Source: Neoroseomonas marina
Lineage (GTDB): Bacteria; Pseudomonadota; Alphaproteobacteria; Acetobacterales; Acetobacteraceae
Assembly (NCBI RefSeq): GCF_012927745.1
Contig: NZ_JABBKX010000001.1
Location: 186,001 to 250,000 of the forward strand
DNA: 64,000 nt
Direction of reading: 5' to 3'
Positions 5,147-62,696 of the stretch are shown piece by piece; the first letter of the stretch is position 1; the number at the start of each line of letters is the position of its first letter. The notes below the pieces were generated by a model. It ran no database searches and was not told where the DNA came from. It worked only from the letters and a program-made list of their open reading frames with translations. The position numbers were made by a program, and so were the translations under genes.

Positions 5147-5223
5147 TGGTAGCGGCGAGCGGACTTGAACCGCTGACCCCGGCATTATGAGTGCCGTGCT
5201 CTAACCAGCTGAGCTACGCCGCC
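5147..5223 (-). tRNA. tRNA-Met (anticodon CAU), elongator type
   Basis: Read on the minus strand the 77 bases fold as a full cloverleaf with an encoded CCA end. The acceptor stem GGCGGCG/CGCCGCT has a G1-U72 wobble. The D-arm is GTAGCTCAGCTGGTTAGAGC, the anticodon stem CGGCA/TGCCG with loop CTCATAA (anticodon CAU at 5187-5189), and the T-arm AGCGG-TTCAAGT-CCGCT. The G1-U72 pair and the overall sequence resemble elongator tRNA-Met of alphaproteobacteria rather than initiator tRNA, which has a C1-A72 mismatch. A lysidine-modified tRNA-Ile2 also carries CAU and cannot be fully excluded. Confidence 0.95.
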
Positions 5224-59677: not shown

Positions 59678-60655
59678 TCATGGCCAGACAGGGAGGCCCT
59701 CCAGCCCCGCGGTCTCCGGCAGGCCGCAGATCAGGTTCGCATTCTGCACCGCCTGCCCCGCGGCGCCCTTGCCGAGATTGTCGACCACGCCCATCGCGAT
59801 CACCAGGTTGCGCTCCGGATCCGCCGCATAGCTGACGAAGGAGAGGTTCGAGCCGGTCGCCCATTTGGTCTGCGGCGGCTTGTCCGTCACCCGCACGAAC
59901 GCGCGCCCCGCATAGAATCGCCGGGCCGCGTCCATGCACTGCTCCGTGGTCGCGCCGCCGCGACAATAGATGGTGACGAGCACGCCCCGGGTCATCGGCA
60001 CCAGATGGGGCGTGAACACCAACCCGGCGGCGCTGCCGCCGCTCAGCCGCTCGATGGTCTTCGCCATCTCGGGCATGTGGACGTGCTGGAGCAGGCCATA
60101 GGGCACGAGGTTCTCGTTGCTCTCGGCATAGCCGAACCGGCTGTCGGCGCCGCCACGGCCGGCGCCGGAAATCCCGGTCTTGGCATCGATGATAATGTTG
60201 CCGGGGTCGATTAGCCGGTTCGCCAGCAGCGGCGCGAGCGTGGTCAGCACCGCCGCGGGGAAGCAGCCGGGATTGGCGATGCGGGTGTGGCCCGCGATCC
60301 GGTCCGGCCAGACATCGGCGAGGCCGTAGGCCCAGCCCTCGGCGTAGCGGTGGTCGCCGCCGATATCGACGATCTTCACCTCCTGCGGGATGCGCGCCAG
60401 CGCCTCCGCGGAACGGCCGGTGGGCAGCGAGGCGAACAGCAGGTCGAGCTGTGGCAGCGTCGCCGGGTCCCATTTCTCGATCACCAGCCCGGCCAGCCTG
60501 GGCGGCACGCCGGGGAACCGATCCATCAGGAGGCTGCCGGCGCTGCCCTCGCCGGCGGCGTAGACGAGTTCGAAGGACGGGTGGGCCGCGACCAGGCGCA
60601 GCGCCTCGCCGCCGCCGAAGCCACTGATTCCGACAATGCCGACGCGAAGGGTCAT
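59678..60655 (-). CDS. argC: N-acetyl-gamma-glutamyl-phosphate reductase
   Basis: ArgC reduces N-acetylglutamyl phosphate to the semialdehyde, the third step to ornithine and arginine. The 325-residue product has the NADP site VGIVGISGFGGGEALRLV, DIGGDHRYAEGW and the catalytic Cys131 in RIANPGCFPAAVL. A His near FTPHLVPMTRGVL is the second catalytic residue. Its leader carries a complete candidate arginine attenuator (60689-60906). In relatives pyrG and kdsA are usually adjacent, so argC with its own control looks like an insertion between them. Confidence 0.96.
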   Translation of the reverse strand: MTLRVGIVGISGFGGGEALRLVAAHPSFELVYAAGEGSAGSLLMDRFPGVPPRLAGLVIEKWDPATLPQLDLLFASLPTGRSAEALARIPQEVKIVDIGGDHRYAEGWAYGLADVWPDRIAGHTRIANPGCFPAAVLTTLAPLLANRLIDPGNIIIDAKTGISGAGRGGADSRFGYAESNENLVPYGLLQHVHMPEMAKTIERLSGGSAAGLVFTPHLVPMTRGVLVTIYCRGGATTEQCMDAARRFYAGRAFVRVTDKPPQTKWATGSNLSFVSYAADPERNLVIAMGVVDNLGKGAAGQAVQNANLICGLPETAGLEGLPVWP

Positions 60656-60688: not shown

Positions 60689-60720
60689 AAAAACCCCCGA
60701 AGCCGGTGGCTGCGGGGGTT
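60689..60720 (-). terminator. rho-independent terminator/attenuator before argC
   Basis: On the minus strand AACCCCCG-C-AGCC (60720 down to 60708) pairs with GGCT-T-CGGGGGTT (60704 down to 60692) over the loop ACC, with one C-T mismatch, followed directly by further T residues (60691-60689). It is the strongest intrinsic terminator in the window and lies only 34 bases before the argC ATG, so it must be bypassed for argC expression. The segment CGCAGCCAC within it (60706-60714) is exactly complementary to an upstream leader segment. Confidence 0.85.
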
Positions 60721-60834
60721 CGGAGATGCGGGCCGATGCCGCCTCGGCGGATGGGCCGCTAGGAAGCGGGCCTCATCGCGGGAGGGGCGTGTCTGCACGC
60801 AGCCACGAAAGCCGCCGCTGGAATGCAGCGACGG
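60706..60834 (-). promoter_or_regulatory. attenuator hairpins 1:2 and 2:3 of the argC leader
   Basis: Hairpin 1:2 pairs CCGTCGCTG (60834-60826, minus strand), which overlaps the arginine codons, with CAGCGGCGG (60820-60812), allowing one G-U pair. Just downstream GTGGCTGCG (60806-60798) is a perfect 9-base match to CGCAGCCAC (60714-60706) in the 5' arm of the terminator: the antiterminator 2:3. A ribosome stalled on the arginine codons would block strand 1, free strand 2 and prevent termination; a moving ribosome would allow the terminator. This is the classical trp/his-type arrangement. Confidence 0.7.
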
Positions 60835-60869
60835 CGTCGGTTCGCGGTGCGGAGGTGCAGGCCACGCAT
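60759..60869 (-). CDS. argC leader peptide with four consecutive arginine codons
   Basis: A 36-codon frame (ATG 60867-60869, TAG 60759-60761) lies between a promoter and a terminator upstream of argC. It encodes Arg at positions 2, 7, 11, 12, 13, 14, 26 and 33; codons 11-14 (60828-60839) are CGA CGC CGT CGC. No Shine-Dalgarno is seen, but the predicted transcription start is within about 3 bases of the ATG, so the message would be leaderless, as in rhizobial trpL. The peptide itself may have no function beyond sensing charged tRNA-Arg. I propose no existing symbol. Confidence 0.65.
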   Translation of the reverse strand: MRGLHLRTANRRRRCIPAAAFVAACRHAPPAMRPAS

Positions 60870-60877
60870 GGCAGGGA

Positions 60878-60906
60878 CGCTAGAGGCGCCCCGGAACGGC
60901 TGTCAA
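60878..60906 (-). promoter_or_regulatory. promoter of the argC leader
   Basis: Consensus TTGACA (60901-60906, minus strand) is followed after 17 bases by CTAGCG (60878-60883; TCTAGC at 16). The start point falls at about 60870-60872, at the leader ATG. Just upstream lies the perfect palindrome GGCCCTGG-CCAGGGCC (60922-60937), possibly an operator or a remnant of pyrG termination. Confidence 0.6.

Positions 60907-60971: not shown

Positions 60972-62696
<1,725 letters not shown>

Follow-up and report, generated by a model that had tools for sequence, protein, structure and literature searches.

The argC gene analysed here is very probably preceded by a leaderless, ribosome-mediated transcription attenuator that would sense charged tRNA-Arg. 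It lies on the minus strand of a 64,000-nucleotide stretch of the Neoroseomonas marina genome, which we call the window. The elements, their conservation, their spacing and the in-frame run of arginine codons come from the sequence and from comparison with relatives, and the pairings from computation only; transcription start, translation, stalling and read-through are what we infer. An earlier sequence-only reading had proposed an attenuator of the trp/his type, which the conserved and correctly arranged elements described below support as far as sequence can.

The leader sits between pyrG, which ends at 60972, and the accessory, putatively regulated argC (59678..60655, minus strand, ATG at 60655), whose product scores 277.5 bits against TIGR01850 (cut-off 233.6). 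On this strand, a TTGACA -35 hexamer (60901..60906) is followed by a -10-like hexamer, TAGCGT (60877..60882), which is weak (3/6 letters of TATAAT), and 7 nt past the latter by the ATG (60869) of a probably leaderless frame of 36 codons including the stop, MRGLHLRTANRRRRCIPAAAFVAACRHAPPAMRPAS (60759..60869). Four Arg codons, CGA CGC CGT CGC (60828..60839), are the proposed sensor, and the stop codon comes 22 codons past them. Hexamer, ATG, frame and Arg codons had all been placed on the minus strand by the sequence-only reading, and each is indeed there. It had also seen a hairpin overlapping the Arg codons, and our folds recover it (segment 1:2, 60811..60835, with 60835-60826 pairing with 60820-60811). 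Around it closes an outer stem (60794..60859, where 60859-60855 and 60850-60841 pair with 60809-60794). Two candidate antiterminators overlap these structures. The long one, supported by masked folds, joins a 5' strand in segment 2 (60792..60818) to a 3' strand in segment 3 (60712..60736) that extends into the 5' arm of the terminator and is also supported by pair conservation. The short one pairs the 9-base strand GTGGCTGCG (60798..60806) with its exact complement CGCAGCCAC (60706..60714), within the terminator. The intrinsic terminator hairpin itself (segment 3:4, 60692..60720) reads AACCCCCG-C-AGCC-acc-GGCT-T-CGGGGGTT from 60720 to 60692 and runs into a T-rich tail (60693-60685) that ends about 30 nt before argC. 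This terminator too had been anticipated, and its stem is kept in relatives.

The leader RNA folds 6.0 s.d. below shuffled sequences, and none of 200 shuffles was as good. A simple consensus scan did not list a single promoter, and its sole terminator-like site is inside argC, not at the leader; we attribute these misses to the weak -10 and to a 1x1 mismatch in the terminator stem. Rfam 15 left the leader unmatched: its single match in the whole window is a tRNA at 5150-5223, the leader region gave at a relaxed threshold two matches far below the gathering cut-off (E 0.97 and 2.8), and no family matched in 14 related loci.

Related leaders are frequent upstream of this type of argC. Among the best 80 of 195 loci of an ArgC search, 79 have upstream DNA (all except L064), and the leader is directly 5' of argC in 50 of these 79. 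At six further loci it stands in front of an intervening gene, which is SnoaL-like, a GNAT, or a GNAT plus a GDSL-hydrolase-like gene. The count of 29/79 loci without leader was thus too high, and 23 of the 79 readable loci have no leader related to the window's. Five leader-less loci (L014, L016, L030, L040, L078) share a promoter-like stretch, TTGAC..CGCAATTGGC, about 100 nt 5' of argC.

Whole genomes were searched with R1, a covariance model built from 51 leaders. It found the leader in 54 of the 78 genomes of the argC loci (25/49 and 29/29; the genome of L063 was left out, and L068 and L031 share one genome). At the level of the taxonomic family 31 of 299 genomes match, and across the class 13 of 385, three of them strongly; the ten weaker class-wide matches (L087-L096, at most 28 bits) were rejected as chance and overlap open frames of at least 100 codons. 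The window's own genome has one strong match, the next of the 11 listed scoring 23.9 bits. Another genome, G358, carries an intact leader and argC plus a decayed copy (L097), in which the leader's first half is joined to a piece of the 3' part of argC.

We compared 78 distinct leaders, whose sources include Acetobacteraceae, Bosea, Methylobacterium and Reyranella, and conservation across so many distinct relatives excludes a chance origin. The motif GCTGCGTG separates two subtypes, A (32/78, including the window's) and B (46/78), with an Arg-run motif that is mostly NRRRRC in A and mostly DRRRRRC in B. Sister ArgC proteins at L019 and L063 carry leaders of different subtypes, B and A respectively, which suggests that leader and argC recombine. 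Roseomonas nepalensis has three leaders (L066; L190, L191), located 5' of argC, of a GNAT and of a truncated GNAT that adjoins a transposase-like gene.

The region upstream of the frame has one rigid feature. TTGAC begins 35-38 nt 5' of the start codon in 77 of the 78 leaders (L077 is the exception), and most other positions between the -35 and the start codon are variable. As the -10-like hexamer, 32 leaders have CAGTGT at positions -14 to -9 and 11 have TACCGT at positions -13 to -8. Of the leader frames, 76 open with ATG and two with GTG, which occupies the same place, and no leader (0/78) has a Shine-Dalgarno-like tetramer at -16 to -5. Given the fixed distance between TTGAC and start, which also holds in leaders with GTG for ATG, we strongly infer that the transcript starts at the leader start codon, i.e. 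that it is leaderless, as the sequence-only reading had suspected. To judge from sequence, a start downstream of the terminator is also disfavoured, by the presence of a conserved TTGAC upstream of it at a fixed distance.

The longest Arg run within the first 60 nt is in the frame of the start codon in 78/78 leaders; it has 3-5 codons and begins at codon 10-12. Two leaders (L042, L060) miss exactly 6 nt of Arg codons, i.e. two codons, with the frame kept. Past the run, 1-nt indels occur in the hairpin loop (L006, L048) or further 3' (L010, L057), and the frames terminate at differing stops. The in-frame loss of Arg codons, together with frame-breaking indels after the run, indicates that translation is preserved as far as the Arg run and no further.

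Conservation of the Arg codons and of the 9-base complementarity in close relatives had been set beforehand as a test, and the codons and the core of the complementarity are conserved: besides the in-frame run, all seven base pairs between GGCTGCG and CGCAGCC, the core, form in 70-78 of the 78 leaders each (the two outer pairs of the match are left out of this count). In the terminator stem 12 of 13 positions are paired in at least 74/78 leaders. The outer stem, which in the fold of the window's leader sequesters the antiterminator strand when no ribosome is present, has different sequences in the two subtypes; in 62/78 leaders four or more of the 7 nt of GGCTGCG are paired upstream. Over the 78 sequences, pairs of the long helix are kept in 87% of cells (subtype A 92%, subtype B 83%), whereas sliding one strand by 1-4 positions lowers this share to 32-53%, and the RNAalifold consensus of 51 leaders includes the inner part of the helix. 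The middle stem is poorly common to the leaders (56% of cells), and changes are mostly one-sided. Covarying hairpins had been among the expectations. The pairings are conserved, but compensatory changes are few: they affect 2 of 25 consensus pairs (covariation term -0.75, RNAalifold, 51 leaders), and in the 7-bp core they number none among 51 leaders and one among 78 (L129, A-T, outermost pair).

A stalled ribosome was mimicked by masking 14-29 nt from the first Arg codon in folds of the 78 leaders, with RNA up to the 5' arm of the terminator. Either antiterminator engages this arm (probability >0.5) in 11/78 leaders without mask, and in 61, 62, 58, 35, 18 and 55 of them at masks of 14, 17, 20, 23, 26 and 29 nt. 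Over the same series, the core of the short pairing exceeds 0.5 in 11 leaders unmasked and then in 13, 5, 6, 8, 18 and 55; for the long helix (inner part) the numbers are 10 unmasked, then 53, 57, 56, 54, 44 and 16. For the window's leader, the 9-base match is favoured at masks of 26-29 nt (0.88-0.93), and the turn falls between 23 and 26 nt. In these models there would thus be two antiterminators, the long helix when the ribosome sits on the first Arg codons, and the 9-base match when it is further on. The sequence-only reading knew only the 9-base match; as an exact complement with a conserved core it stands, but as one of two, since the long helix wins at shorter masks. The opposite idea, that the 9-base match is no antiterminator, was dropped because it rested on one mask and the winner varies with the reach of the ribosome. 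Which of them forms leaves the mechanism unchanged, since both take up the 5' arm of the terminator. In folds of 11 leaders that include the whole terminator, this hairpin is favoured at equilibrium in all 11 under the shorter mask and in 10 under the longer one; at the shorter mask the 11 leaders divide into eight with the long helix, two with the short one and one with a variant. Read-through would hence need timing, and timing decides in trp-type attenuators. The 1:2, 2:3 and 3:4 pairings are overlapping conserved complementarities that shift with the mask as expected, with little covariation and a terminator favoured at equilibrium.

We propose the following mechanism. RNA polymerase would start on the A of the leader's ATG or close to it, and the ribosome would thereby begin at the very 5' end. 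With ample arginine, this ribosome would pass the four Arg codons and reach the stop codon; the Arg-codon hairpin and the outer stem would re-form behind it, the terminator would follow, and transcription would end ahead of argC. Under arginine shortage, the ribosome would stall on the Arg codons, covering segment 1 and freeing segment 2, which would pair co-transcriptionally with a stretch that includes the 5' arm of the terminator, and argC would be transcribed. A stall on the first Arg codons would give the long pairing (60818-60792 with 60736-60712), and a stall on or just past the last one the 9-base pairing (60806-60798 with 60714-60706).

By its sequence relationships, the argC of the window is an accessory, horizontally moving second copy. 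The genome of the window also has a TIGR01851 argC beside rpsI, and a TIGR01851 argC is present in 32/32 genomes tested; the ArgC tree mixes hosts; TIGR01850 argC occurs without leader in Cupriavidus, Polaromonas and Ramlibacter; and plasmids of Methylobacterium aquaticum, Agrobacterium leguminum and Roseomonas haemaphysalidis carry argC with DNA that aligns with the leader. On the ArgC tree (80 rows, bootstrap unsettled), the presence of the leader, labelled with the 29/79-negative count and not the 23/79 one, needs 12 changes against a mean of 23.7 for shuffled labels. At three loci (L015, L020, L044) the TIGR01850 argC comes, by eye, directly after the apparent end of a TIGR01851 argC, and in genome G280 (L195) a GNAT directly follows such an end.

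The genes that first follow the 78 leaders are argC (64 cases), a GNAT and then argC (7), a GNAT (6), or a SnoaL and then argC (1), a tally that leans to argC because the window's leader and 50 others were found via argC. Two diverged leaders outside the 78 (L187, L188) precede a SnoaL-GNAT fusion. In three loci the leader-borne GNAT is followed, by eye, by a transporter, EamA-like (L178, L189) or LysE-like (L184). NCBIfam gives nothing near a cut-off for the GNAT, with 17.8 bits against 202.85 for amino-acid N-acetyltransferase.

The same layout also occurs in leaders of other sequence. We scanned 700 nt upstream of genes for a TTGAC followed at 35-38 nt by a start codon, with RRR within the first 20 residues. 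From 60 GNAT loci among the matches listed (two sets of 30), four were too short and 56 were scanned. Twelve match, four with leaders related to the window's and eight unreported by R1; in the rest of the same loci, used as control, 344,122 nt gave one match, located before a TIGR01851 argC. This enrichment is exploratory, because the rule was formed on the leader family of the window and the GNAT loci were picked after the link was seen. In the genome of the window, one such leader (L201; G000 contig C1, about 493.6 kb), MSARPTILTLRRRRPTVLRGRAPGPTPRGRRGA, has Arg codons and a terminator before a GNAT, and no R1 match.

A relaxed scan upstream of TIGR01851 argC found Arg leaders of the same layout in 7 of 31 genomes (L283, L286, L287, L288, L291, L298, L304). 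It had matched eight of 31, from which L292 was dropped (TTGCCC, no TTGAC), as was a second match at L291. Five of these loci have Bosea-type leaders (MTTNPTRRRTEQ... and alike) with a strong terminator, and two, in G280 and G358, have leaders of the form MIS..LLRSRRRRSQKR with a poor T tract. The other leader of G280 and G358 resembles that of Reyranella. Of the 24 TIGR01851 argC regions without leader, 14 showed the end of rpsI upstream. Before the TIGR01851 argC of the window's genome (L002) we saw by eye no Arg leader, and the regions upstream of argG, argJ and argF, in eight genomes each, gave no convincing one; the one relaxed match in these 24 regions (TTGAG, before argJ) was not accepted.

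It is quite possible, if short of probable, that leaderless Arg attenuators are recurrent in Alphaproteobacteria, with multiple origins, and that one of them is a mobile argC/GNAT/SnoaL cassette with two antiterminator registers. Multiple origins are counted on at least four leaders without evident kinship (the window's, the GNAT, the Bosea-type and the G280/G358-type ones). Within this tentative reading, the Arg leaders suggest that the GNAT might be an unrecognised enzyme of the arginine pathway, perhaps N-acetylglutamate synthase, a role which is a guess given that no NCBIfam score is near its cut-off.

The downstream genes also allow another view of the signal. The attenuator might respond to general ribosome slowing or to an arginine antimetabolite, with the accessory argC, GNAT and exporter genes as a set of protective functions that would be induced when Arg-tRNA is poorly charged. 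That argC is a second, horizontally spread copy, that the leader also precedes a GNAT and that an EamA-like or LysE-like transporter comes next in three loci would all suit such a set. Yet Arg leaders precede TIGR01851 argC too, and in one genome the GNAT comes after a TIGR01851 argC, both of which fit plain arginine supply. We thus regard a protection set as unlikely. Still less probable is that the leader RNA or peptide acts chiefly in trans, like rnTrpL and peTrpL of Sinorhizobium, with read-through into argC being secondary: the high conservation of the leader and a leaderless layout like that of S. meliloti trpL (in the parts of PMC7298713 available to us) are in line with this, but the peptide past the Arg run is not kept in frame, and conservation peaks in the pairing segments and the terminator. 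Finally, a conserved intergenic sequence co-inherited with argC and devoid of regulatory function is hardly credible, for the leader does adjoin argC in 64/78 cases, in a tally that leans to argC, but it persists where other genes intervene or replace argC, it keeps a strict promoter-start distance and an in-frame Arg run, and its layout recurs in leaders of other sequence.

Ribosome-mediated attenuators are known for trp, his, leu, ilv, thr and phe. The argC leader resembles them in its run of pathway codons in a short frame and its intrinsic terminator before a biosynthetic gene, and differs in that the amino acid sensed would be arginine; its predicted overlapping hairpins would be mutually exclusive, as theirs are. 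Leaderless polycysteine frames exist in mycobacteria. The cysteine leader peptides of these bacteria likewise repeat a single codon ahead of an operon for the same amino acid, but with Cys instead of Arg codons and, in the parts of the paper at hand, without obvious terminators (PMC1262725). A parallel for the proposed start is S. meliloti rnTrpL/peTrpL, whose transcript begins with the AUG of the leader frame, according to the portions consulted of PMC7298713 and PMC10117765. The argC leader would start in the same way; trpL has Trp codons and precedes trpE, the argC leader has Arg codons and precedes argC or GNAT. In the Salmonella speF leader, consecutive Arg codons of orf34 sense arginine (PMC6386406, as far as accessible). 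According to the same partial source, orf34 has a Shine-Dalgarno site, acts via Rho and RNase G and controls ornithine decarboxylase, unlike our leaders, which have no such tetramer and lie upstream of argC, GNAT or SnoaL. Another predicted alphaproteobacterial ribosome-mediated attenuator, the uORFC-8-2 motif before cysS in Rhodobacterales, differs by its Cys codons and its tRNA synthetase gene (PMC8632094, in the part seen). The sequence-only reading held that arginine attenuation of argC was undescribed, and we found none among the papers listed in the literature searched, mostly outside subscription papers; nor did the accessible parts of the S. meliloti small proteome, the Caulobacter map, the 26-genome RNA survey and the surveys of premature terminators and actinobacterial attenuators hold one. 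The mechanism is a known one; what would be new is its use of arginine for a biosynthetic gene, its probably leaderless form and its being carried as a common cassette.

Teaching usually presents repressor proteins as the control of arginine synthesis. An arginine attenuator, if true, would fill a gap in the range of amino acids sensed by leader ribosomes and, if it is leaderless, sensing would start with the first nucleotide of the RNA. This layout, i.e. TTGAC, 35-38 nt, start codon, Arg run and terminator, is a usable search rule. It has already connected a GNAT without an assigned role with the arginine pathway, and it led to the leaders of TIGR01851 argC.
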